A stretch of DNA of 49,501 bases from the IMG/VR virus record IMGVR_UViG_3300036759_000092, positions 1 to 49,501 of that record, one strand, 5' to 3'. The translations under genes were made by a program, and so were the position numbers. Origin of the DNA: a virus. Under the pieces are notes generated by a model. It did not search any database and was not told the DNA's origin. It saw only the letters and a list, made by a program, of their open reading frames with translations. This document shows, in pieces, positions 3,334 to 46,244 of the stretch; positions within the stretch are counted from its first letter, which is position 1; each line of letters begins with the position of its first letter.

Positions 3334-4368
3334 CTATCGGGTGAATTGCCATGCTCGCTTGGTGAGCCTGAGCGGCACGTCGTCAGGCCCCTTGACGTAG
3401 GGGGCGATCCAGATCTGGCGATGCTCTCCCAAGCTCGCGTACCACTGGTTCCGCCAGTGTCCGCGGACGACGAAGCGGACCGTCAACCTGCGCCCCGTCG
3501 TCTCCATCTCCTCTTGGCCTTGCCGTCCGCGTCGCAGCGTGATCACAGTCACATCGTCAACCGGGCGCTTCTTCCTCTGGCTGTCACGTCTGAGCTGTCG
3601 CGGCAGACGGGCCTTGGTCGGGACGAGCTGGCTGCCGATGCGCCACATCGTCTGGATCAGGGAGGTCTGCTGGCGGGCACGCTCGCGCACATCTTCGAAG
3701 CTGTCCTCGGCGAGGATGTCGTACGCCTCCGGGTCGTCCAAGCTCTCGTAGCCGGGCTGTCCCCACGACCATTGCCACTGATGGACGATGCTGAACGGCA
3801 TGATCCTGCGGATCTCGTCCCTGCTGTGCACTGGCTCGGGGTCGTCCGGATGGCCCATCTCCAGCCTGGATGGGACGCCACGCTCATCCGCCAGGGCGAA
3901 CTCGTCATCGCAGTGGACGTAGAAGGCGATCCAGTAGGTGCCGACGCTGAGATCCTCGCTGTGGATCGGTAGCCACGCGACTGCGCGGACGGGGATCAGG
4001 CCGATGCCGCTGCGCCACGGATGCGTCTTGGTCACCGGCATATCGTCGATCAGCACCGGGCGCGGGAACAGGCAGAACCCACGCGGCGCGAACGGGTCGT
4101 TCGGCAGTAGCTTCTCCGGCTTCCACTTGGCGCGTGCGTCGTCGATGAGATCGGTCACGTCACTGCTGACGTAGATCGGCTCTGCCTCACGCAGCATCTC
4201 TAGCTGGATACCCGCCAGCACGCGGACATCCCGGCGGGCCTTCTCGGTGTGCTTCTCGTTCATCTCACCGAAGAAGCCGATCAGGTACTTGACCCCGATC
4301 TCCGACTGCGACCACTCCAAGATCTGCTGCTGCGAGATGTAGGCGTCCTCCCACCTCGCGTAGCGCAT
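3334..4368 (-). CDS. Conserved-type hypothetical protein, 344 aa
   Basis: A large cytosolic protein with no family I can name with confidence. The C-terminal part (about 285-344) contains the block V-R-G-H-W-R-N-Q-W-Y, then H-R-Q-I-W-I-A-P-Y-V-K-G-P, a pattern I associate with conserved hypothetical proteins of actinophages and actinobacteria. The start at 4368 overlaps the upstream stop (TGATG); a GTG one codon earlier is possible. It heads the small cluster that ends with the lysin. Confidence 0.75.
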   Translation of the reverse strand: MRYARWEDAYISQQQILEWSQSEIGVKYLIGFFGEMNEKHTEKARRDVRVLAGIQLEMLREAEPIYVSSDVTDLIDDARAKWKPEKLLPNDPFAPRGFCLFPRPVLIDDMPVTKTHPWRSGIGLIPVRAVAWLPIHSEDLSVGTYWIAFYVHCDDEFALADERGVPSRLEMGHPDDPEPVHSRDEIRRIMPFSIVHQWQWSWGQPGYESLDDPEAYDILAEDSFEDVRERARQQTSLIQTMWRIGSQLVPTKARLPRQLRRDSQRKKRPVDDVTVITLRRGRQGQEEMETTGRRLTVRFVVRGHWRNQWYASLGEHRQIWIAPYVKGPDDVPLRLTKRAWQFTR

Positions 4369-10867: not shown

Positions 10868-11095
10868 CTCGTCCTCCTTTCCCCTCCTTTGGGATGGGTA
10901 AGCGAGGCGAGCCCGGGGTCACAGAGCATCGCCAAAGGAGGGTAGGCGAACACCCTCCGGACTCGCCTCATACCATTCCCGCGACCCAAGGCGCGGGCTG
11001 GCACCTTTGAGCCTACAGCAGCGATGTTTCGGCTGCTTCCGTCCCCTCGGACCTCTATGCTCCAGGGCATGCTTATGTCACAGGAGCTGGAGGGG
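10868..11095. promoter_or_regulatory. Divergent control region between early and late blocks
   Basis: 228 bases with no gene. It contains the start-associated box CCCAAAGGAGGGG of the leftward gene and an inverted repeat (10905-10916 with 10957-10968, one mismatch) enclosing a second, opposite-facing CAAAGGAGGG. It also contains minus-strand TAGGCT (10010-offset: bases 11010-11015) within ATCGCTGCTGTAGGCT, a 16-mer shared with 6155-6170. A rightward TATGCT (11056-11061) is the only late -10 candidate and lacks a clear -35. Confidence 0.6.
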
Positions 11096-11737
11096 ATGGC
11101 CATTGATCTGCACGAGCTCGTCCCGCATCCGGGCAACCCGCGCCGCGGGCGCGTGGAGACGATCAAGCGGAGCCTGACGCGCTTCGGGCAGATGCGCCCC
11201 ATCCTCGTCGGCCACAGCGACGGCGTCATCATCGCGGGGAATCACACCTACCTGGCCGCGCAAGAGCTCGGCTGGGAGAAGATCGCATGCGTCTACACCG
11301 ATCTCCCCGACGACGAGGCGACGGCGTACATGCTGATGGACAATCGCAGCAGCGACGAGGCGACCTGGGACGACGATGGGCTCCTCATCGTCCTCAAGGA
11401 CATGGAGCGCAAGGATCTGCTGGACGCCACCGGGTTCAACATCGACGACATCGAGGATCTGGTGGCCGCGCTCGACGCCGTCCGCGAGACCGAGGTGGAG
11501 CAGTTCTCCGGCGACTACACCGAGTCCAGCGAGGAGACCGCGCAGCGCTGGGAGAACAGGAACGAGGGCGCGAACAGAGAGATAGTCCTGCTCCTCCCCA
11601 GGGACCAGTACGAGCCGTTCATGCAGGCGGTGGCGATCCTGAAGCAGCACTACGATCTCGAAAGCGCCGCCCAGACGATCTTCCGCGCCGTCACCACCCA
11701 TGCCGAGGTGCTGCATGCCGAGTCTTCTGCCAGCTAG
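11096..11737 (+). CDS. ParB-like nuclease/Srx-fold protein, 213 aa
   Basis: The N-terminal domain (residues 1-110) matches ParB/sulfiredoxin-like phage proteins: L-V-P-H-P-G-N-P-R-R-G (8-18), S-L-T-R-F-G-Q-M-R-P-I (26-36), G-N-H-T (48-51) and the M-D-N-R motif (81-84). Such domains sit beside methyltransferases and base-modification enzymes in many phages; they bind nucleotides and DNA, and some cut DNA. ATG 11096 was chosen for the AGGAG nine bases upstream. The stop overlaps the next gene by 23 nt, tying it to the glycosyltransferase and dioxygenase. Confidence 0.85.
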   Translation: MAIDLHELVPHPGNPRRGRVETIKRSLTRFGQMRPILVGHSDGVIIAGNHTYLAAQELGWEKIACVYTDLPDDEATAYMLMDNRSSDEATWDDDGLLIVLKDMERKDLLDATGFNIDDIEDLVAALDAVRETEVEQFSGDYTESSEETAQRWENRNEGANREIVLLLPRDQYEPFMQAVAILKQHYDLESAAQTIFRAVTTHAEVLHAESSAS

Positions 11738-12518
11738 CAGTTGGCCCTTCGTCGCCGTCCCGTCCTACCGCCGCGAGCACATCTGCCGTGACCGGACGCT
11801 GAAGCTGCTGGCCAGCCTCCGGGTGCCCAAGGAGCGCATCACCCTCTTCGTCGCCGACGAGGATGAGGCGAGCCGCTACAGCAAGACGATCCCCAGGACG
11901 CTGTGCGGTGACATCGTCATCGCACAGCCGGGGATGGGAGCCGTGCGGCGCTACATCAGCAACTACTACCCCGCGTCCGCCGAGGTGCTCAACGTCGATG
12001 ACGACATCACGGGCTTCTACAGGAAGCTGCACGACAAGCGCTACCAGCCGCTCGACGCGGTGGACTTCCACACCATGATCAAGCTCGGCTTCTGGTCGTG
12101 CAGGGAGATCGACGCCCGGCTGTGGGGAATCTACCCCGTCCTCAACCCGCTCTTCATGAAGCTGCGCATCAACGTCGGGCTGATCTACATCGTGGGGGCG
12201 TTCTGGGGCTGCATCAACTCGCACGACGCTCGTCTCACGGTCACCCTGGACGACAAGGAGGACTTCGAGCGCACCATCAAGCACTTCATCGTGGACGGTG
12301 CCGTCGTCCGCCTGGAGGCCTACAGCCTGCGGACGAGCTACTACACCACTCCGGGCGGGATGCAAGAGACCAGGACCACAGAGCGCGTGACGTCCAGCGC
12401 CAAGTGGCTCGCCCAGCGCTACCCCGAGCTCTGCCGCCTGAACACGGCCAAGAAGTCAGGGCGCACGGAGATCCGCTTGCTGAAGCAGCCGGTGCGTCAG
12501 CGCGAGGTGCTGGCATGA
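11715..12518 (+). CDS. TET-associated glycosyltransferase (TAGT), 267 aa
   Basis: Predicted to attach a sugar to a hydroxymethylated DNA base. The N-terminus F-V-A-V-P-S-Y-R-R (12-20) is the nucleotide-sugar Rossmann strand of the family, L-N-V-D-D-D (92-97) is its metal-binding acidic motif, and L-W-G-I-Y-P-V-L-N-P (136-145) and P-G-G-M-Q near the end are further hallmark blocks. Length fits a single-domain enzyme. It overlaps the ParB-like gene and overlaps the dioxygenase start as ATGA, so the three are made together. The sugar and the exact base cannot be read from sequence. Confidence 0.85.
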   Translation: MPSLLPASSWPFVAVPSYRREHICRDRTLKLLASLRVPKERITLFVADEDEASRYSKTIPRTLCGDIVIAQPGMGAVRRYISNYYPASAEVLNVDDDITGFYRKLHDKRYQPLDAVDFHTMIKLGFWSCREIDARLWGIYPVLNPLFMKLRINVGLIYIVGAFWGCINSHDARLTVTLDDKEDFERTIKHFIVDGAVVRLEAYSLRTSYYTTPGGMQETRTTERVTSSAKWLAQRYPELCRLNTAKKSGRTEIRLLKQPVRQREVLA

Positions 12519-13393
12519 TCGAGGCGCGTCTGCGGACCAAGATAAGCGCCGCCGAGATGGAGACGAAGATCGGCAAGATCTTGACACCGACCGACATCAA
12601 TCTCAGTCTCACAGGTCCGGCGCGCATACTCCTCCCGGACGGCAAGCCGCTCTGCGTCTACCTCCCGGGAGGCGTCCTGGTGGAGATGGACGCAGTGTGG
12701 CCGACGTTGCGCAAGATCAAGATGACGACCGACAATCGCGGTCTGGCCAGCGGGACGCAGCGCGTCAGCGCGGGAGGCAACCGGACGCGGACCATGCCCG
12801 TCTTCAGCGGGATAATGGGCGCGATGGATGCCGGTCCCGGGCGCGGCTACTGTCGGCTGACCAACTTCACGCGTGAGAACGCCGAGGTCTGGGACATGCT
12901 CGCGCCGCTGCTGCGCGCTATCGCTGCCAAGTTCGCCCAGCACGTCCCAGATCGCTACGCCAACCAGAGCCAGGTTTCACGTTTTACGGAGAGGGATTGG
13001 GTCGTACAACGGACGCCCTTCACCACCATCACGGTGAACAACAGCTACTCCACGGGCGTCCACAAGGACAAGGGCGATCTGGATGCCGGGTTCTCGTGTC
13101 TCGCGGTCGGGCGGGGGGGGGAGTTCGACGGCGGCTGGCTCGTCTTCCCAGAGTACCGCGTCGGCGTGGACATGCGCCACGGCGATCTCCTCCTCATGGA
13201 CGCGCATCAGTGGCACGGGAACACCGCGATGGTCTGCCGTTGCGGGGAGAAGATGTCCCGGCGACCCTGTAGCCTCTGCGGTGCGGAACGAGTTTCCGTC
13301 GTGGCGTACTACCGCACGAAGATGCAAGTCTGCGGGACGCAACAACAGGAGAACGACAAGCGCGTTGCGGCCCTGGAGGCACGAGCACGATGA
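12515..13393 (+). CDS. TET/JBP-family 2-oxoglutarate Fe(II) dioxygenase, 292 aa
   Basis: A DNA base oxidase. H183-K-D185 is the proximal H-x-D iron triad, W-H234-G-N supplies the distal histidine, and R259 or R267 (R-V-S-V-V-A-Y-Y-R) can bind the 2-oxoglutarate carboxylate. C241, C243, C252 and C255 form a zinc knuckle between the last two motifs, as in phage TET/JBP proteins. It would hydroxylate the methyl group of 5-methylcytosine or thymine for the adjacent TAGT enzyme. The last 25 or so residues are nearly repeated at the end of the next gene. Start by ATGA overlap. Confidence 0.88.
   Translation: MIEARLRTKISAAEMETKIGKILTPTDINLSLTGPARILLPDGKPLCVYLPGGVLVEMDAVWPTLRKIKMTTDNRGLASGTQRVSAGGNRTRTMPVFSGIMGAMDAGPGRGYCRLTNFTRENAEVWDMLAPLLRAIAAKFAQHVPDRYANQSQVSRFTERDWVVQRTPFTTITVNNSYSTGVHKDKGDLDAGFSCLAVGRGGEFDGGWLVFPEYRVGVDMRHGDLLLMDAHQWHGNTAMVCRCGEKMSRRPCSLCGAERVSVVAYYRTKMQVCGTQQQENDKRVAALEARAR
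13309..13393 (+). repeat. Direct repeat, copy 1 (3' end of the dioxygenase gene)
   Basis: About 80 bases, roughly three quarters identical to 13746-13830, in the same reading sense. It encodes the Y-Y-R-T-K-M-Q to V-A-A-L-E-A-R segment of the dioxygenase. Confidence 0.85.
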
Positions 13394-13842
13394 TCTGCTC
13401 CAAATGCGGCGAGGATAAGGAGACCGGCGACTTCTACGCTGGTCGCCGGGCGTGCAAGGAGTGCGACAAGCGCCGGGTTGGTGAGTGGCAGAAGGCACAT
13501 CGCGACGGCGCGTACATGCGACTGTGGCGCTACGGGATCAGCGAGGAGGACTTCCACGCTCTGCTCACTGAACAAGACGGGCGGGGTGCAATCTGTCGTC
13601 AGGTGATGACGAAGCCGCACATAGACCACAGTCACAAGACTGGTGAGATCCGGGGTCTGCTCTGCTTCCATTGCAATGCTGGCCTTGGCCACTTCAAGGA
13701 TTCGCCTGCACTGATGCGCCGAGCGCTCGCTTATAGTCAAGGTCGCTACTACCGGACAAAGATGCAGAAGTGCGGGACACCCGAACAGGAAAACCACAAG
13801 CGCGTCGCGGCCCTCGAAAGCCGCACGACGACCGCTGCCTGA
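13390..13842 (+). CDS. Recombination endonuclease VII-like HNH protein, 150 aa
   Basis: C3-x2-C6 and C22-x2-C25, then H77-I-D79-H80-S-H82 with C69, C92 and C95 match the endonuclease VII fold (zinc plus beta-beta-alpha-metal nuclease), which as a free-standing gene commonly behaves as a homing endonuclease. The core ends near residue 117. Residues 120-146 are foreign to the family and instead copy the C-terminus of the upstream dioxygenase. It starts inside the dioxygenase stop (ATGA). Best read as a mobile nuclease gene inserted at the 3' end of the dioxygenase gene. Confidence 0.85.
   Translation: MICSKCGEDKETGDFYAGRRACKECDKRRVGEWQKAHRDGAYMRLWRYGISEEDFHALLTEQDGRGAICRQVMTKPHIDHSHKTGEIRGLLCFHCNAGLGHFKDSPALMRRALAYSQGRYYRTKMQKCGTPEQENHKRVAALESRTTTAA
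13746..13830 (+). repeat. Direct repeat, copy 2 (3' end of the endonuclease gene)
   Basis: Counterpart of 13309-13393. Codes for Y-Y-R-T-K-M-Q-K-C-G-T and K-R-V-A-A-L-E-S-R. Probably the displaced original 3' end of the dioxygenase gene. Confidence 0.85.
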
Positions 13843-13902: not shown

Positions 13903-14439
13903 ATGAGCGAGAGCAACGGGCATCTAGCGGACGAGGAAGAGCGCCGCGCAGCGCGTCGCGCTGAGGTCGCACGCGATACCCGGGCGGGCATCCTCGACAG
14001 AGCGCGGAGACGCCATCGCATCTTGGAGCTGCGTGCGGCTGGTCTCACCGAGCAGCAGATAGCCGACCGGCTCAGCATGACGCAGAGCAACGTCAGCCGC
14101 GCTCTCAATCGCGTCATGCAGAAGTGGGGCGAGGAGGACGAGGAGAACGTCCGCGCCGTCCGCAACATGAAGCTGTTCGAGCTGGACCAGCTCAAGCGGG
14201 CGGTCTGGGCGAATGCGCTGCAAGGCGACGTCAAGGCGGTGCGCGAGGCGATGCGCATCATCGAGTTGCAGGCCAAGATCAGCGGCGCCAGCGCCCCCAT
14301 CCGCATCGAGCGGCGCACCACCGTTGACCTCGGCGGGATCGACACCGCAGAGATCGATCGCATGGAGACCGCCTGGCTGGAGGCGGGTGGTGAGATCATC
14401 GAGGGTGTGATCGCGGAAGAGGACGATGGCAACACCTGA
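13903..14439 (+). CDS. Terminase small subunit, 178 aa
   Basis: DNA-recognition subunit of the packaging motor. Residues about 40-72 form a clear helix-turn-helix (L-E-L-R-A-A-G-L-T-E-Q-Q-I-A and S-M-T-Q-S-N-V-S-R-A), followed by a long helical oligomerisation region and an acidic tail that would contact the large subunit. It overlaps terL by 14 nt. No strong Shine-Dalgarno lies before ATG 13903. The 60-base gap after the endonuclease holds nothing else I can support. Confidence 0.8.
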   Translation: MSESNGHLADEEERRAARRAEVARDTRAGILDRARRRHRILELRAAGLTEQQIADRLSMTQSNVSRALNRVMQKWGEEDEENVRAVRNMKLFELDQLKRAVWANALQGDVKAVREAMRIIELQAKISGASAPIRIERRTTVDLGGIDTAEIDRMETAWLEAGGEIIEGVIAEEDDGNT

Positions 14440-15952
14440 GGAGAAGCGGGTCCAGCGCGTCAAGCGGGCGCTGGCCAACCCCGTCTTCTTCGCAGAGACG
14501 TACTTCCGCCCCTACGACCAGAGCTGGGCGTCGAGCATGCCTGCGTTCGCACAGGACATGCTCCGCTTCATCAGGTCGAACTCGCGCAGCGTGGTCATGC
14601 TCCCGCCCGAGTTCATGAAGACGACGATCTGTAGCCAGGTCTACCCGCTCTGGCTGACGTACCGCGCCGCCATCATGCAGAAGCTGCTGCGCGGGATGCT
14701 GGCCAGCGAGGAGGAGGGGTTGGCCGCGTCGAATCTCAGCGTGGTCGCGTGGCACATCGAGAACAACGAGTTCCTCTCCCGGGACTTTGTCGATCCCAAG
14801 GGCAAGCGTCTGGTCTACCCCGACCCCACGGAGGACACCTGGCGCTACGACGCCATCATCGTCAACCGCCACGGCGCATCGAAAGACCCCACCTGGCAGG
14901 CGAAGGGATTGGACAGCAAGGGCGTCCAGGGTCGCCGCATCGACGTGCTCATCGCCGATGATCTGGTGACGCCCAAGAACGCCATGTCACCGACGCTGCG
15001 TCGCCGCGCCCTCGACTTCTGGGATCTCCAGTTCGAGACGCGGCTCGTCGCCAGTGGCCAGGCCATCGTCTCGGGCAACTTCAACGACATACGCGATCTC
15101 GTCTCCACGCTCTCCGCTCGTCCCGGGTACAAGCTCTTCAAGCGGCCCAGCATCGCCAAGCTCGACAACCCCAGCGAGCCCCCGCGTGAGCAAGACCTGG
15201 AAAGCGATGCCAAGAGCACCCTCACCTGGCCGGAGGTCTGGACGCGGGAGCGGCTCTTCAACGAGCGCAAGATGAAGCCGCAGCGCTTCCGGCGCATCCA
15301 TCTGCTGGACAGCCGCGCCGAGATGGGCGAGCAGCTCAAGATCGAGTGGGTGCAGATCCTCGATCCCAACGAGACCCCGCTGAAGTACTGCCGCTTCTAC
15401 ATGGGGATCGACCCGGCGCCTGGCAGCGGCGACGACGACCCCGACTTCTTCAACATCACGGTGGGCGCGCTCCACGGCTCCAACCTCGACGTCGTCGAGA
15501 TACGCGACGTGCGTGCGCCGATCCCGCGTCAGTGCGCGCTGGTCGGCATCCTCCATGATCGCTACCAGCGCCTCGGCATGGGCGTGATCGCCATCGGCGG
15601 GGCCAAGATCACGCTCGACCGCTACTTCCGGGGTGCCCTTTCGATTGCCCGAAAGGACCTGACGCACAAGCTGGTGGAGATCAGCGTGGCGGGCGCGAAG
15701 GAGGAGCGGCTTGAGGCGCTGGGGCCGTTCGCGCAGAGCGGCTTCATGCGCTGCTGGGAGCCGACGTGGCTCGGCCTGACGGCGGATGTGACCGACCAGT
15801 GGCAGGAGCTGAGCCTGTACGAGCAGTGGCGCGACTTCCCGCACGCACGCCATGACGACAAGCTCGACGGCCTCGACGTGATGGTGCGCACGGCCAATCA
15901 GTTCGCGATGGTCGGCGAGCAGACGATAGACGTGGAGGTGCTGGAGGCATGA
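14426..15952 (+). CDS. terL: Terminase large subunit, 508 aa
   Basis: ATPase and nuclease that drives DNA packaging. A deviant Walker A (L-P-P-E-F-M-K-T-T, 59-67), Walker B (I-D-V-L-I-A-D-D, 172-179) and an RNase H-like nuclease are visible: M-G-I-D-P-A-P-G (about residue 330) provides the first acidic residue and H-D-D-K-L-D-G-L-D near the end the last ones. Full family length. It is translationally coupled to the small subunit and to the zinc-ribbon gene after it. Packaging type cannot be proved from sequence, but the closing 127-mer fits circularly permuted headful DNA. Confidence 0.95.
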   Translation: MATPEEKRVQRVKRALANPVFFAETYFRPYDQSWASSMPAFAQDMLRFIRSNSRSVVMLPPEFMKTTICSQVYPLWLTYRAAIMQKLLRGMLASEEEGLAASNLSVVAWHIENNEFLSRDFVDPKGKRLVYPDPTEDTWRYDAIIVNRHGASKDPTWQAKGLDSKGVQGRRIDVLIADDLVTPKNAMSPTLRRRALDFWDLQFETRLVASGQAIVSGNFNDIRDLVSTLSARPGYKLFKRPSIAKLDNPSEPPREQDLESDAKSTLTWPEVWTRERLFNERKMKPQRFRRIHLLDSRAEMGEQLKIEWVQILDPNETPLKYCRFYMGIDPAPGSGDDDPDFFNITVGALHGSNLDVVEIRDVRAPIPRQCALVGILHDRYQRLGMGVIAIGGAKITLDRYFRGALSIARKDLTHKLVEISVAGAKEERLEALGPFAQSGFMRCWEPTWLGLTADVTDQWQELSLYEQWRDFPHARHDDKLDGLDVMVRTANQFAMVGEQTIDVEVLEA

Positions 15953-18086: not shown

Positions 18087-19613
18087 ATGGCCTTCCATCT
18101 CCTCAGTGACGTTGACGTGGTCGCCGTCAGCCTGGTAGACAAGGGCGCGAACAGGCGCAAGTTCTACCTCCGCAAGCAGGAGGACGAGGAGCGCGAGGAG
18201 TTCCTGCTGCCGCCGTCGCGCATTGTCAAGGCGGACGACTGGTCAGCCGTCTACTGCATAGTCGCTGAGCCGGGTGCGCGTGAGAATCCCGGCGTCGGTG
18301 CCGATACCGACCTTGAGGACGAATGGCGTGATGCCGACGAGATCCGCAAGGCGGCACATCGCTTCATGAAGAACGGCGCGCTCGTCAACAAGATGCACGA
18401 GGCGCTGGATCCATTCGGCACCGTGGTGGAGAACTTCGTGGCGCAGTCCACCTTCCTCGTCGGTGAGGAACTGATCAAGGAGGGCGCCTGGGTGATCGGC
18501 ATCGCGCCCACCGACGATGGTAAGGCAGCCATCGAGAAGGGTGAGTTCACCGGGGTCAGCATCCAGGGGACGGGCATCAGGACGCTGGTGGAGAAGGCTG
18601 CCCTCACATCGAAGGGCAGGAAGAGCCTTCCCAGCAGCGCCTTCGTCTTCCCGAAGGACAAGCGCTACCCGATCCACGATCGGGCGCACGCTGCGAACGC
18701 GCTTGCCAGATCAAGCGGCAAGCCCGAAGAGGCTGCCGTCCGCGCCGCCGTCTGCAAGAAGTTCCCCGATATGCCTGCATGCAAGAGGGGCGTGCAGAAG
18801 GAACTGGAGAAGGTGCTCGGTCCGCCCGGAACCGACATCGCTCGCAATCAGGCGGCGGCGCGAGGTCCTCTGCGGCACCTGATCGCCTTCTACATGAAGA
18901 AGCCGCATCCGTTCACGGCATGCGTCCGCGACAACACCAAGCGGTTCGGTCCCGATCGTGCCAAGCGAGTGTGCGCCGTCCTCAAGGATCTCGGTGAGGG
19001 GACGACGAAGTGGCGTAGCGGCGGCAAGAAGATGATGAAGGCCGAGGACGTCAGCGACGAGCTCGTGGAGACGTGGGCGCTCGCCTTGGGCAGCGTCGGC
19101 GTCACGCACGACGACATCGTGTTCTTGGCCAAGGCTCTAGAAGATACGGAAGGTAGGCTTGGCGAAGGCGTGACTGACACCGAAAACAAGGGCTGGCTTC
19201 GCGCCATCGGCAAGACGCTCGGCATCTCGAAGGAAGATGTCGATGCAGAGGTAGAGCTCGCGACCGAGGAGGAGACGACGGTGTCGGACAACGCGTCCGA
19301 CGAGCGCCTGGAGCGTATCGAGGAGGCCATCACCAAGTCTTCGGCTCAGGTCGAGGCGCTGGCGAACCGGCTCGCCGATATCGCCGAAACGCTCGCCGGG
19401 AAGAAGAAGGAAGACGAGGAGAAGGAGGAGGAGCAGGTCCCGCAGGCCGAGGTCTACCATCGTCTCGAAGAGGTGGCCAAGTCGCTCGACGAGATCAAGG
19501 CCGACGTGGACAAGCTCGCCTCCGGCGACTCGACCCAGCGCGACGACCAGCGCGACAGGGTGACCAAGTCCGAGTCCGACCACCCGCTCGCGGGTCTGCT
19601 GATCGAGGAGTAA
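18087..19613 (+). CDS. Prohead protease / scaffold fusion (XkdF-like), 508 aa
   Basis: Residues about 35-165 resemble the XkdF-type putative serine protease: A-V-Y-C-I-V-A-E-P, an M-K-N-G-A-L-V-N-K-M-H-E block and E-G-A-W-V-I-G-I. Residues about 195-245 match a small domain seen in many phages (S-A-F-V-F-P-K-D-K-R-Y-P-I-H-D followed by R-A-A-V). The C-terminal 150 residues are acidic coiled coil, as in scaffolding proteins. A single chain therefore probably serves as both maturation protease and internal scaffold. It sits just before the capsid gene. Confidence 0.8.
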   Translation: MAFHLLSDVDVVAVSLVDKGANRRKFYLRKQEDEEREEFLLPPSRIVKADDWSAVYCIVAEPGARENPGVGADTDLEDEWRDADEIRKAAHRFMKNGALVNKMHEALDPFGTVVENFVAQSTFLVGEELIKEGAWVIGIAPTDDGKAAIEKGEFTGVSIQGTGIRTLVEKAALTSKGRKSLPSSAFVFPKDKRYPIHDRAHAANALARSSGKPEEAAVRAAVCKKFPDMPACKRGVQKELEKVLGPPGTDIARNQAAARGPLRHLIAFYMKKPHPFTACVRDNTKRFGPDRAKRVCAVLKDLGEGTTKWRSGGKKMMKAEDVSDELVETWALALGSVGVTHDDIVFLAKALEDTEGRLGEGVTDTENKGWLRAIGKTLGISKEDVDAEVELATEEETTVSDNASDERLERIEEAITKSSAQVEALANRLADIAETLAGKKKEDEEKEEEQVPQAEVYHRLEEVAKSLDEIKADVDKLASGDSTQRDDQRDRVTKSESDHPLAGLLIEE

Positions 19614-21150: not shown

Positions 21151-21804
21151 ATGCCTGACTATCCCACTGCGCCTGAGCTGGTAGCAGAGTCCAACATCCC
21201 GGCGCTGACGCAACTCACGCCGGACCAGCAGCAGGAGCTCTACGAGCTTTCGGTCAGTGCAATCGAGGAGTTCTGCGGGCAGGTGTTCGACTTCCAGCAG
21301 GACGCGACGTTCCTCCTCGATGGTCCGGGCTCCAACGTCATGTACCTACCGAAGCGCCTGGAGCGTTTGGATGCGCTCTACATCACCAACTCGGCGCTGG
21401 ATGTGGGCGATGTCACACTCAGCGAGAAGCACGACCACCTGGAGGTCATCTCTGGGCTCGGTGCCGGGAGGAACTACTACTCCTGGGCGTTGCTGTCATT
21501 TGAGGTGGGCGTCACGTTCGACTTCGCCTACGGGCTGTCGAACGTGCAGATCACCGGGAACTGGGGCTGGGAGAACTTCCCCACGCCTGTTCGCACGGCG
21601 ATCCGCACCGACATGGAAGACACCGCTCTGGCCGATACCAATCTCCTCAACCAGACGGTGCGCAGCTATCGCAAGATGGGCATGCGCGATATTTCGCAGG
21701 GGAACCTCCGTGCAGCGGTCAACTTCGCCCCCGGTCTGGGCGACGATGTGATCAACATGCTCCAGCCGTACGTCTGGCAGGGCGCGATCGGTGTCGTGGT
21801 CTAG
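21151..21804 (+). CDS. Head-tail connector (adaptor) protein, 217 aa
   Basis: Helical start ([21 protein letters not shown]) followed by a beta section and a helical end with S-Y-R-K-M-G-M-R-D, the arrangement of gp6/gp15-type adaptors that bind below the portal. Its position fits. No strong ribosome site; its stop TAG shares one base with the next GTG start. Confidence 0.75.
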
Positions 21805-24656
21805 TGGCTCGGGTTCCGTTCATCATCCGCGCCACCGACTTCGCGGGGAACGCACTCGGCAACGCCTTGGTCGAGGTCCGCAGGCAGGACACGCAGGCTC
21901 CTGCCAGCATCTACGACGACGAGACGAACGGCACCGTAGTCGATCCTGCGCTGACAGCGCCAAACGGGAAGCTCATCGCGTGGATCGACAGCGACGTCAC
22001 CTACGAGTGGCGTGCGACCTACGCCGAGTACGTTCTCCCGTGGGAGATCTATTTCGCTGAGATATCCCAAGGTGCTCCGGGGCCGCAGGGTCCTCCCGGG
22101 CCTGCCGGGTCGATAGGACCAGCAGGACCGACAGGTCCCGCAGGCCCAGAGGGGCCGGATGGTGCGCAGGGGCCGCTAGGCCCGACAGGAGCAACCGGCC
22201 CGGTAGGACCCGAAGGCCCGGCAGGAGTGGACGGCGCTGTCGGCCCCACGGGCACAACCGGAGCGACTGGCTCGCAGGGTCCGGTTGGACCTACAGGACC
22301 TCAAGGACCTCAGGGACCGGCAGGTCCATCGGGCATGACGTACCGGGGAGCGTGGGAGGCCGGGACCGCCTATGTCGCCGCCGACGTGGTGTCGTACTTC
22401 GACACCAGTTACATCGCCATCGTCGCGTCCACTGGTGTCCAGCCCAACAGTGACCCGGACAAGTGGGCCGTGCTCGCGTCCGCCGGGGCGGCTGGCCCCA
22501 TCGGCCCCCAGGGCGACGCTGGTCCCACCGGACCTGCTGGGCCAGAGGGACCAACGGGGCCGACAGGGCCGCAAGGGCCGGAGGGACCCGCAGGAGCCAC
22601 GGGTCCAACGGGTCCCGCAGGACCGCAGGGCATCCAGGGGCTCCCGGGTCCCATCGGCCCGGCAGGGCTGAACTGGCGCGGTCTGTACTCGGGCACCGCG
22701 ACCTACCAGATCAACGATGCGGTCGCCTTCGGCGGGAGCAGCTACTTCGCGACGAAGGTCACGACGGGCAACCTCCCGACGAACACGAACTTCTGGGCGC
22801 TCCTGGCTGCTCAGGGTGCAGCCGGTCCGCAGGGGCCGGTAGGAGCACCAGGACCGACAGGTCCCGCTGGAGCCACCGGACCGGCGGGTTCCACCGGCCC
22901 GGCAGGGCCGGTAGGACCGGCAGGACCCACCGGGGCAACAGGACCGACAGGACCGGCAGGCACGACTGGACCGGCAGGCCCCGCAGGGCCGATCGGCATG
23001 ACGTGGCGGTCTACGTGGTCGTCCACTGTCCAGTACGCCGCACGCGATGCCGTCGAGCGGAACGGCAGCAGCTACATCGCCAACACGTCCAACAAGAACA
23101 AGGACCCGGCGTCAACCAATCAATGGGATCTCATCGCCCAGCGCGGGTTGACAGGTCTCCAAGGGCCGACCGGACCCACGGGGGCAACAGGAGCGACGGG
23201 CTCTCAAGGTCCGCAGGGGATCCAGGGTATCCAGGGAGTGGCTGGCGCGACTGGCGCGACTGGCGCGACTGGCGCGGCGGGGCCTCAAGGACCGGAGGGC
23301 GCTCCGGGCGGAGGCACCCAGCAGTCGGTCTGGGGGTGGTACGCCGCAGCGGTGAGCGCGCCCATCGCGACTGGACGCGTGGGTGTTGACAACGATTCCC
23401 CCAGCCTGGCGACCCATGTCTGGATCCACCCCGTCGATCAAGTGACAGGCGGCGTGGATTGGAGCACAACGATCATGGCGCTGGTCGCTGGCGACCACGT
23501 CTACGGTCAGGCGAAGGGCAGTGCTTCGAGTTGGCATCGCTGGAAGGTGACTGGTCCGGCGGTGACGAACGGGTCGAACAAGGTGATCCCGGTCACCAGC
23601 GAGTCCGGGAGCCCGCAAGGGACGGAGCCCGCCAACGGTGCCGATGTCGTCTTCGCGTTCCAGTTCCAGCCACTTGCCGGTCCCGCAGGTGCAACTGGAC
23701 CGGCAGGACCTCCTGGTGCATCTGTCATATGGCGTGGGACATGGGCAGCAGCGACCGCCTACGCCGTGAACGATGCCGTCACCTACAACGGCTCCAGCTA
23801 CATCAGGACGATTGCAGGGACCACGGCCACGAACCCGGCGTCGGATACGACCAACTGGGCCGTCCTCTCGTCCAAGGGCGATACGGGCGCGCAGGGGCCG
23901 ACAGGTGCGACAGGTGCGACAGGCCCAGCAGGAGCGGATGCCCAGCCGCGTCAGTTGATGGACGAGGGATCTGCACTCGCTGTGCGGGGCTACGTCAACT
24001 TCGTGGGGTCTGGTGTCACAGCGGCCGACGATGCCGCGAATGACAGGATCAATGTCACCATCCCTGGTGGCATTGCCCCGACAGACATGCGTCGGCGGAT
24101 GCGACCCGGTCGGTACTACTTCCAGAACGTTGGCGGCGCGCTCAGCAATGTCGGGTGGGGACAGAACAACCGCCTCTACTGCACGCCACTGGACGTCGAG
24201 CAGGGGGTTGTCCTGGATCGCCTTGGTATCAGCATCGGCACGGTCTCATCACCCACCACCGCCACTGTCCGCTTCGGCATCTACGCCGACACTGGCGATG
24301 GCTATCCAGGTGCCCGGATCATCGATGCCGGGACGGTCGATGTGGGCACCCTCGGCGCGAGAGAGGTGACGCTGAGCCAGCTTATCTCTGACTCCCTGAT
24401 CTGGCTCGCCGCGCTGGTCCAGGGCGCGACGACGACGCTACCGAATGCTGCGGGATGGGCAGGAAGCGCACTGACAGCGGGGTCCTATGGCTTCCAGGAT
24501 TCCCTAGTCACTGGCGTCGCCGTCAACGGCCAGGCGCTCAGCGTCAACGCGCAATCCGCCGGGCTGCCGTCCACATTCCCCGATACGACGGATAGCAACG
24601 TCACCGCGTTCGGCGCGGTCTCGACGCCGCGCATCTGGGCGCGGGTAGCCCCCTGA
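21804..24656 (+). CDS. Collagen-like fibre with four carbohydrate-binding modules, 950 aa
   Basis: An N-terminal beta domain (1-90) anchors long runs of G-P-x/G-x-x triplets interrupted by four repeats of a W-R-G-x-W/Y...Y-x-x-x-D-x-V...G-S-S-Y unit (near residues 175, 290, 395 and 645), the pattern of type 3 chitin-binding (CBM5/12) modules. A C-terminal beta-rich domain of about 230 residues may trimerise or bind a receptor. The gene lies among head-tail connector genes and not with the tail tip genes, so it may be a head fibre. GTG start overlapping the upstream stop. Confidence 0.85.
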
Positions 24657-34298: not shown

Positions 34299-35074
34299 TG
34301 GCTGACATCAGCCCGTACCTGTTCTTATGGAACGACGTTGCGTCACTGACAGGCACGGTAGATTCAGATAGTGAATGGGTCTACGTCAACGCGACGTTGA
34401 CATTCAACGAGAGCTTGTTCCCATATGGTCGTGGGAACATCGTCACATCTGACGGTTTCCAGCGCCCCGGCTTGATCGTATCGCCATACGCCCCGTTTGA
34501 GGCTGGGTTCGGTACGCTCCCGCAACTCTTCTGTCGTCTTCCCAACCCCCCATACGGGGCGAGGATTATCTACACGGATGACCCGACGAAGCCGAATGCC
34601 ATGACACCGATAGACCCAGGGAACGTCGGTGTCGATCGCAACGCAGACTTCGGGTTGACAGGGAAGTACCTCGGCTCACAGGTGCGATCGTCATGGGTAC
34701 ACAAGCTCAGCGGCTATAGCGAGGTCCGTCCAGCCGAGAACGAGACAGACTTCCCGCCCCTCGTCTGGGAAACTGTGAAAGACACCTACCCGAATGGCAT
34801 CCGTCGTCAATATGAGTACGACGAGTGGCTCGGCTACGTTCTTGCGTACAACGAGGAGACGGGGGCACCGATAGGCTGGGTACTCCACGACACCGTCCCT
34901 ATGATCTGGGACCCGGCCGATACCGATCAAAGAGTCATTAGTCGCGGTGGCTGGACGTACCTCGGGTTCTTCGGGCAATCGTCACCGGGCATGATCATCG
35001 ACTTCGAGATGCAGTGGTGGAACGGCCCCGGCTTCCGCTGTGGTGACGAGACGCGCATCATCACTGTGGACTAG
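34298..35074 (+). CDS. Probable tail fibre / receptor-binding protein, 258 aa
   Basis: Last rightward gene. Beta-rich, with many aromatic and glycine residues (L-P-N-P-P-Y-G-A-R, W-L-G-Y-V-L-A-Y-N). The stop TAG is embedded in CTAG (35071-35074), which on the other strand is the stop of the collagen-like membrane protein. No terminator separates the two convergent genes. Confidence 0.65.
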   Translation: MADISPYLFLWNDVASLTGTVDSDSEWVYVNATLTFNESLFPYGRGNIVTSDGFQRPGLIVSPYAPFEAGFGTLPQLFCRLPNPPYGARIIYTDDPTKPNAMTPIDPGNVGVDRNADFGLTGKYLGSQVRSSWVHKLSGYSEVRPAENETDFPPLVWETVKDTYPNGIRRQYEYDEWLGYVLAYNEETGAPIGWVLHDTVPMIWDPADTDQRVISRGGWTYLGFFGQSSPGMIIDFEMQWWNGPGFRCGDETRIITVD

Positions 35075-35856
35075 ACGGGCGGGCCGCAAGAGAAGACGTT
35101 GTCACCGTCGGGGTCGGCGCAGATCAACGTCACGAGGTTGTTGTTCCCGTCGGTAAAGGTGAACTGGAACTGCACCATCGCCGGTCCGGGGGGGCCTTGC
35201 GGTCCCTGTTGTCCTGCCGGGCCGGTCGCACCGGGCTCACCCTGAGGACCTGCCGGTCCGGCAGCTCCGGCTGGTCCCTGGTCGCCCTTGGCCCCTGTGT
35301 TCCCCGTGGTCCCGTTGGAGCCGGTGTCGCCCTGGTCGCCCTGGTCGCCCTTGGCACCAGGACTGCCGCTCGCTCCCGCTTGTCCCGCCTGACCAGATGC
35401 GCCCGATGGTCCCTGTGGACCCGTACCGCCCGATGCGCCCGTGTCGCCCTTGTCGCCCTTCGTCCCGCGCTGGCCTGTTGGTCCGGCTGGTCCTGACGGT
35501 CCCGTATCTCCCTGCGGACCGGGATTTCCAGGGAGTCCAGGGGTGCCGTCGTGCCCGTCTGCGCCCTGGACGCCTGAGATGCCCTGCTCGCCGCGCAGGT
35601 AGCGGACCACCTCCTCACTGCGGTCCTTCGCCTGGGTGGCGGTCGCCTTCGCCTGGTCGGCGCGCTGGGTCTGCTCCTTGAGCGCGATATAGGCGCTGAA
35701 CCCGCAGAGCAGCGCGAGTAGCCCGAGGGCGATCCACGTGATGAAGAAGCGCCGGTGGTTCTGCTGCGTCTCTTCGTTGGCGAGGGTCTGCCCATGCGAT
35801 AGCAGCTCATCCGCCGTCACTGGCTTGTGGTTCGTCTGCGGTGCCTGGGTGCTCAT
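35071..35856 (-). CDS. Membrane-anchored collagen-like protein, 261 aa
   Basis: A cytoplasmic N-terminus (1-36), one membrane helix (37-59), a helical stalk (60-90), about 45 G-x-y triplets (about 91-225) and a small C-terminal domain. A type II orientation would place the collagen rod outside the membrane, perhaps crossing the wall. It is the last gene of a lysis-type trio (holin candidate, coiled-coil membrane protein, this one), so it may aid envelope disruption, or it may dress the infected cell surface. Confidence 0.85.
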   Translation of the reverse strand: MSTQAPQTNHKPVTADELLSHGQTLANEETQQNHRRFFITWIALGLLALLCGFSAYIALKEQTQRADQAKATATQAKDRSEEVVRYLRGEQGISGVQGADGHDGTPGLPGNPGPQGDTGPSGPAGPTGQRGTKGDKGDTGASGGTGPQGPSGASGQAGQAGASGSPGAKGDQGDQGDTGSNGTTGNTGAKGDQGPAGAAGPAGPQGEPGATGPAGQQGPQGPPGPAMVQFQFTFTDGNNNLVTLICADPDGDNVFSCGPPV

Positions 35857-45617: not shown

Positions 45618-46244
45618 CTAGTCGTTCACGGGGACGTTGAAAGCTGTGATGTTGCCGTTGGTGCCCAAGACGTAGAGGCGCACGACGGGCTTGAGGCCGT
45701 GCTTCCTGATCACCAGCGACGTGACGCCGCACGGCACGTTGCGGAAGTTGACCTGCACCCGTCCGTTGCGGATGGGCAGCGTCACCTTCTTCCCTGCGAC
45801 ACGCGCCTGGACGCTGCCTCGGTAGCCCTTCGGCAGCTTCACCGAGAGCGTACGCTTGGACGTGCAGGTCGTGCGGTTCTGCACCGTCTGCGTCACGGTG
45901 GTGGTCGTCGTCACGCCTGGCGGTCCGGCAGCCCCAGTGGGACCGGCGGGACCGGCGGGTCCTTGCGGTCCGGTTTGTCCTGCGGGTCCTTGCGGTCCTG
46001 CGGGTCCCTGGGGGCCTGGCGACCCAGGCGTCTCCTCATCGTCGTCGTCCTTGCACTTGCCAATCGTGTCGCCGTGCATCAGGTGCGCCGGGACCGCATC
46101 GAGATCTACCGTGACGGTGTGCTCCTTATCCGGCGGCGGTGGGACGTGACACATCTCTACCTTCATGCCGTCGTCGGCCATTGCCGATGCAGGTGTGAGC
46201 ATGATCGCGGCGATAGCCGCCGCGCCGAGGTGACGCTTCTCCAT
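45618..46244 (-). CDS. Secreted collagen-like protein, 208 aa
   Basis: A signal peptide (1-24, ending A-S-A-M-A) precedes a short domain M-C-H-V-P-P-P-P...H-T-V-T-V-D...A-H-L-M-H-G-D...G-K-C (about 31-63), seen in secreted bacterial proteins. Eleven or so G-P-x triplets (73-109) and a beta-rich end with two cysteine pairs follow. Export and collagen triplets argue for an extracellular role during infection. AAGGAGG precedes the start. Confidence 0.85.

Follow-up and report, generated by a model that had tools for sequence, protein, structure and literature searches.

Which base does a phage dioxygenase of the TET family modify when the genome that encodes it has no recognizable C5-methyltransferase? 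This question is raised by a virus record, a single linear sequence of 49,501 bases (referred to as the window, i.e., the whole stretch of DNA analyzed), in which genes for a ParB-like protein, a glycosyltransferase, and a TET/JBP dioxygenase are located 5' of the terminase. TET/JBP enzymes are thought to originate from phages. Burke et al. reportedly described in 2021 phage TET systems with a C5-methyltransferase, and, in line with that work, all characterized phage TETs that we know of act on 5-methylcytosine (5mC), which counts against thymine as a substrate. A passage in the literature that cites Burke 2021 (PMC12730594) presents glycosylated cytosine as the product of a phage C5-methyltransferase, TET, and glycosyltransferases that collaborate. 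The preliminary description of the locus had left two options, namely, 5mC supplied by the host or thymine. The genes of the locus and those that follow it are listed below.

11096..11737, + strand: ParB-like protein with a ParB_N domain (PF02195, 3.5e-7; phrog_620, 2e-39)
11715..12518, + strand: TAGT-type glycosyltransferase with a GT-A fold and the DDD motif D95-D97 (phrog_25200, 6e-42)
12515..13393, + strand: TET/JBP dioxygenase with invariant ligands and a TET2-like fold (PF12851, 9.8e-21)
13390..13842, + strand: endonuclease VII/HNH-type gene (PF02945, 1.9e-20)
13903..14439, + strand: HTH protein at the position of the terminase small subunit (HTH_23, 8.4e-6), found 3' of TET in relatives
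14426..15952, + strand: large subunit of the terminase, located 3' of the cassette (phrog_38, 4.3e-47)

The ParB-like, TAGT, and TET genes form a real three-gene DNA modification cassette. As had been proposed, the ParB-like gene is coupled to the other two by overlaps, which amount to 23 bases between the ParB-like and TAGT genes and to 4 bases between the TAGT and TET genes. The start codon of the ParB-like gene is uncertain, position 11024 being an alternative.

The assignment of the dioxygenase, originally made on the basis of an H-x-D...H...R motif, was confirmed at three levels. (i) The protein matched PF12851 (Tet_JBP) with 74.1 bits at a cut-off of 34.9. (ii) In an alignment of 34 sequences, the iron ligands H183, D185 (the H-x-D motif), and H234 as well as R259, which serves 2-oxoglutarate, were invariant. 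(iii) The AlphaFold model (pLDDT of 91) resembled TET2 with a Z-score of 22.3 over 255 residues, followed by NgTET1 (19.0), CMD1 (19.0), and CcTET (17.6), whereas the scores for FTO/AlkB were lower, between 13 and 15. A phmmer search of PDB sequences with the single window protein matched no TET; a profile search did match TETs. The D-D-D glycosyltransferase of the TET-associated type was also upheld. Its score against the Pfam family TAGT (PF20691) is 22.5 bits, slightly under the cut-off of 27.5 bits, and a relative that is 60% identical reaches 38.2 bits, above the cut-off. D95-D96-D97 are invariant in 28 sequences, and the model (pLDDT of 92) matches GT-A folds; the best structural matches include several HexNAc-transferases (Z of approximately 14), which do not fix the sugar that would be transferred. 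Among 41 viral relatives of this TAGT type, the fetched locus contained a TET in 29 cases and a C5-methyltransferase in none.

The description of an apparently complete genome in which no methyltransferase is found also withstood closer inspection. Neither PF00145 (C5-methyltransferase) nor PF01555 (N4/N6 methyltransferase) matched any of the six frames of the window, and the same was found for the related genome G001, whose ParB, TAGT, and TET are 60 to 71% identical to those of the window. In a Pfam search of the 58 window proteins outside the structural block, methyltransferases were absent among the best 25 of 42 families. Two PHROG assignments that carry the name DNA methyltransferase were rejected: the first concerned the gene at 18087-19613, which is a head protease and was judged a naming artefact; the second, phrog_498, covered only residues 13 to 161 of the ParB-like protein and was judged a mixed-family artefact. 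In G001, the genes that occupy opposite ends of the window are approximately 0.5 kb from each other, and the ends of G001 fall within or beside genes that adjoin each other in the window; both records thus look nearly complete and differently permuted.

To place the window TET among phage enzymes, we used scans that provided 62 close relatives, 71 sequences related to the TET of phage Melnitz, and 8 related to that of phage Terij. These formed three separate groups in the tree (supports of 97, 99, and 100), in which some branches are long and the deeper joins unsure; the window TET falls outside the methyltransferase-linked Melnitz clade, and both clades are supported (97 and 99). The loci of the window's clade (n = 62) and of the Melnitz-like clade (n = 72) were then compared by gene counts, using profiles made for this analysis. 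(i) In the window's clade, ParB-like genes were found in 52 loci, ADDT in 48, P-loop kinases in 52, TAGT in 10, PLP enzymes in 18, FAD enzymes in 12, and radical SAM enzymes in 3, and none of the 62 TET cassettes contained a C5-methyltransferase. Representatives of the neighbors were ADDT PF18724 (amino acid:DNA transferase) and Ploopntkinase3 PF18751, and further recurrent ones were a DAO-type FAD oxidase, a radical SAM enzyme, and a protein with a weak match to PLP enzymes. (ii) The Melnitz clade, in contrast, contained a C5-methyltransferase in 67 of 72 loci, no ParB, no ADDT, and TAGT in 10, together with 28 kinases, which are raw matches of a broad profile. For C5-methyltransferase and ParB-like genes, the contrast between the clades corresponds to a Fisher value of 1.9e-32, which overstates the independent evidence since the loci are related by descent. 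(iii) In the two main clades, no fetched locus combined ADDT with C5-methyltransferase. (iv) Of 50 records from the window's clade, 5 contained PF00145 somewhere; four of these matches were above the cut-off and tens of kilobases away from TET, and the fifth was sub-threshold at approximately 5 kb. The methyltransferase-free cassette described initially is hence present in the window but is not peculiar to this genome, being instead the rule in its clade. There is an exception to this rule, since Actinomadura rayongensis (L193) has a PF00145 gene approximately 3 kb from a ParB-linked TET, along with a radical SAM gene. PF00145 was also absent from the complete genomes of 11 isolates whose TETs lie outside the Melnitz clade, namely, HTVC112P, Cr30, P12024L, DLP_6, S-CBWM1, C48C1, Terij, Ottawa, Acadian, Altadena, and Prairie.

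L001, L002, and L008 join the window in a small branch of its clade (support of 95), in which TAGT stands where the rest of the clade has ADDT and kinase. PF18724 was absent from these four records and present in all six sister-branch records tested. The relatives thus share the methyltransferase-free pattern and carry enzymes of thymine modification, which suggests that the window phage probably makes a sugar-decorated thymine. PF00303, the thymidylate synthase family, which includes dUMP hydroxymethylases, had no match in the window and was absent from 44 of 45 TET records, with Caulobacter phage Cr30 as the exception. This makes TET a candidate source of 5-hydroxymethyluracil (5hmU) and thymine its likely substrate.

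We start from what was observed, namely, genes with intact catalytic residues, the order of these genes, the C5-methyltransferase that was not found, and the clade-wide pattern, and consider it likely that the cassette serves a postreplicative hypermodification, of which we infer the thymine substrate, the sugar, the role of ParB, and the protective function. The TET-fold enzyme would convert thymine of the phage DNA to 5hmU by hydroxylating its 5-methyl group, and TAGT would use an activated nucleotide-sugar to glycosylate the hydroxyl so created, resulting in a glycosylated 5hmU, a base-J-like base, that may shield the phage DNA from host nucleases. The ParB-like protein would probably recruit or target the enzymes to phage DNA, and the location of the cassette 5' of the terminase suggests that modification precedes packaging. 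For the clade as a whole, the gene content favors, on balance, a base-J-like thymine made by TET and TAGT with a ParB-like targeting factor. In the sister branch, the same thymine hydroxylase would feed an amino acid transfer, so that 5hmU would come from TET instead of the nucleotide pool.

The active site provides hints on the choice between thymine and 5mC. Three residues, R267, N236, and M228, are common to the window TET and its ADDT-linked relatives (44 of 44 each) and differ in the methyltransferase-linked clade, so that the window enzyme, which has these distinctive residues, is likely to share the substrate of those relatives. The position of TET2 H1904 is occupied by R in the window's clade and by D in the Melnitz-type clade, and the R267 position splits the clades into R, D, or L. 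However, CcTET, which was crystallized with 5mC and 6mA DNA, also has an Arg at the place equivalent to R267; this residue is thus suggestive rather than diagnostic, and its use to tell thymine from 5mC was abandoned. In addition, Asp188 aligns with NgTET1 D234, a 5mC contact, and is kept in both the window's and the Melnitz-like clades, indicating that the pocket does not clearly read thymine.

The alignment of Asp188 with NgTET1 D234 agrees with an alternative in which TET oxidizes 5mC set on phage DNA by host methyltransferases and TAGT glycosylates the resulting 5hmC. The structures of TET2, NgTET1, CMD1, and CcTET contain 5mC or related DNA, TAGT shows kinship to the hmC glucosyltransferases of phrog_842 (beta-glucosyl-HMC-alpha-glucosyltransferase, 2.5e-9), and, of 40 actinomycete genomes that were sampled and had no TET match, 18 contained PF00145. 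Nevertheless, more than half of these genomes lack PF00145, and one genome that carries the cassette argues against a host source. In a scan of bacterial genomes, the cassette was found in a prophage of Haloechinothrix alba DSM 45207, where terminase-like and portal-like genes come after ParB, TAGT, and TET, in the same order as in the window. PF00145 was not found in the 4.7-Mb H. alba genome by a search that did match in other genomes; in at least one case, the usual host 5mC is therefore unavailable. Cytosine methylation was furthermore unseen in recent studies of Mycobacterium smegmatis, the host of phage Acadian, although this is disputed (PMC4938668), and host-made 5mC leaves unexplained why ADDT and kinase take the place of the methyltransferase across the clade. 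We therefore regard this explanation as unlikely. Of the two options left initially, thymine is favored by the C5-methyltransferase counts of the two clades, the ADDT and kinase partners, and H. alba.

A still less probable alternative is a phage-encoded C5-methyltransferase that has diverged beyond the reach of PF00145, or a hypothetical gene that makes the 5-methyl group in another way. Many small genes of the window have no match, and a gene for 344 amino acids at 3334-4368 has no Pfam match; however, each of the five Melnitz-like records searched with PF00145 yielded its methyltransferase, and the 344-amino-acid gene has no counterpart in G001, which retains ParB, TAGT, and TET. Action of TET on another substrate, such as RNA or the N6-methyladenine on which CcTET can act, with TAGT modifying something else, is highly improbable: R267 aligns with the Arg of CcTET, also solved with 6mA DNA, but the adjacent glycosyltransferase fits a stable hydroxymethyl pyrimidine and not the unstable hydroxymethyl adenine, as expected from general chemistry, and the partners in sister loci belong to an enzyme type that works on 5hmdU DNA (PMC6449724).

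Glycosylated 5hmU made from thymine can be compared with several systems. (i) To our knowledge, base J is restricted to kinetoplastids and their relatives, in which JBP1/JBP2 have in common with the window a TET/JBP-family dioxygenase followed by a glycosyltransferase, with thymine as the proposed substrate in the window. The differences are that the window glycosyltransferase is a phage TAGT, that a ParB-like protein is present, that the base-J-like product is deduced, and that Pfam reported no J-binding domain in the window. (ii) Burke-type or Melnitz-type loci share the TET fold, the core catalytic residues, and, in 10 of 72 cases, a nearby TAGT, whereas the window's clade is separate and has a ParB-like gene instead of a methyltransferase. 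(iii) The ParB-TET-aGPT-Pplase2-kinase set of Rhodococcus phage Tonitrus was proposed in 2025 to function in thymidine hypermodification (PMC11955845). It likewise has ParB-like and TET-like genes at one genome end, but the window contains TAGT and not aGPT-Pplase2 (ADDT) and kinase. (iv) Mycobacterium phage Acadian and the Arthrobacter phages Altadena and Prairie have ParB-like, TET/JBP, and TAGT genes together in genomes without PF00145, but their TETs are approximately 25% identical to that of the window, TET precedes TAGT, and there is an additional PIG-L gene of the GlcNAc-deacetylase type; no PIG-L gene was seen in the window. In Mycobacterium phage Acadian (TAGT, 6.5e-38), TET matches PF12851 with 1.4e-4, under the cut-off, and is annotated as queuine tRNA-ribosyltransferase; Arthrobacter phage Altadena has the same gene set, and its TET is named "Tet-like J-binding protein" in GenBank. 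The deacetylase-type gene suggests an amino sugar in these phages. (v) In phages M6, ViI, and phiW-14, the modification is also built on 5hmU in DNA, 5hmdU being elaborated by a 5hmdU DNA kinase and then by alkylamine transferases; unlike the window, which has no PF00303 gene, these phages are believed to use 5hmdUTP for replication (PMC6449724).

Phage TET/JBP and TAGT are thus established as families, and the notion that a J-like phage base would be new has to be restricted, given the thymidine role already proposed for ParB-TET clusters (PMC11955845) and the GenBank name of the Altadena protein. New here are the separate clade formed by the methyltransferase-free TETs nearest the window, the finding that no fetched locus of the two clades compared has both ADDT and C5-methyltransferase, the replacement of ADDT and kinase by TAGT in the branch of the window, and a cassette host that appears to have no C5-methyltransferase. 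If our proposal is true, prokaryotes would have a counterpart of JBP in a phage enzyme that hydroxylates thymine and comes with a glycosyltransferase of its own. It would be a new enzyme that introduces 5hmU and glycosyl-5hmU into DNA and would open a way to hypermodified thymine that bypasses a special nucleotide pool.

The endonuclease VII-type gene, which overlaps TET by 4 bases, lies within the span 11096-13842 first given for the cassette; only the first three genes belong to the cassette. A direct repeat of 71 nucleotides with 80% identity links 13307-13377 to 13747-13817, the 3' end of the endonuclease VII-type gene being a copy of the TET 3' end. In the relative L001, TET runs directly into the next gene with no such gene in between, and the endonuclease VII-type gene is probably an inserted interloper outside the module.

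A single cluster in Actinomadura rayongensis (L193:3051-8942) combines a radical-SAM gene, a C5-methyltransferase, a ParB-like gene, and TET, and is an exception to the rule that TET cassettes of the window's clade lack a C5-methyltransferase (0 of 62 relatives). At three other loci (L179, L180, and L186), a radical-SAM gene adjoins TAGT, and TET was not seen in the fetched stretches.

In Synechococcus phage S-CBWM1 (L067:3729-7139), the genes after TET and TAGT bear the annotations capsule phosphatase and glucose-1-phosphate thymidylyltransferase and perhaps provide the sugar nucleotide. In Pelagibacter phage HTVC112P (L063:8497-9195), an FkbM-type methyltransferase comes after ParB-TET; its substrate could be a sugar or base adduct.

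Because the window TET matches phrog_6059, the name of this phage protein family, queuine tRNA-ribosyltransferase, is probably wrong. The same annotation is carried by the following gene:

L202:813-1691, Mycobacterium phage Acadian gp2, annotated queuine tRNA-ribosyltransferase

By a weak Pfam match and alignment, its product looks like a TET/JBP protein.

The 3' end of the endonuclease VII-type gene (13390-13842, plus strand) carries a copy of the TET tail (13307-13377 versus 13747-13817; 71 nt, 80% identity), as would be expected if a mobile nuclease gene had inserted at the TET 3' end. Elsewhere in the window, the head-protease gene (18087-19613) matches a PHROG called DNA methyltransferase, which we judged to be a naming artifact, and three genes (21804-24656, 35071-35856, and 45618-46244) contain collagen-like Gly-X-Y repeats.
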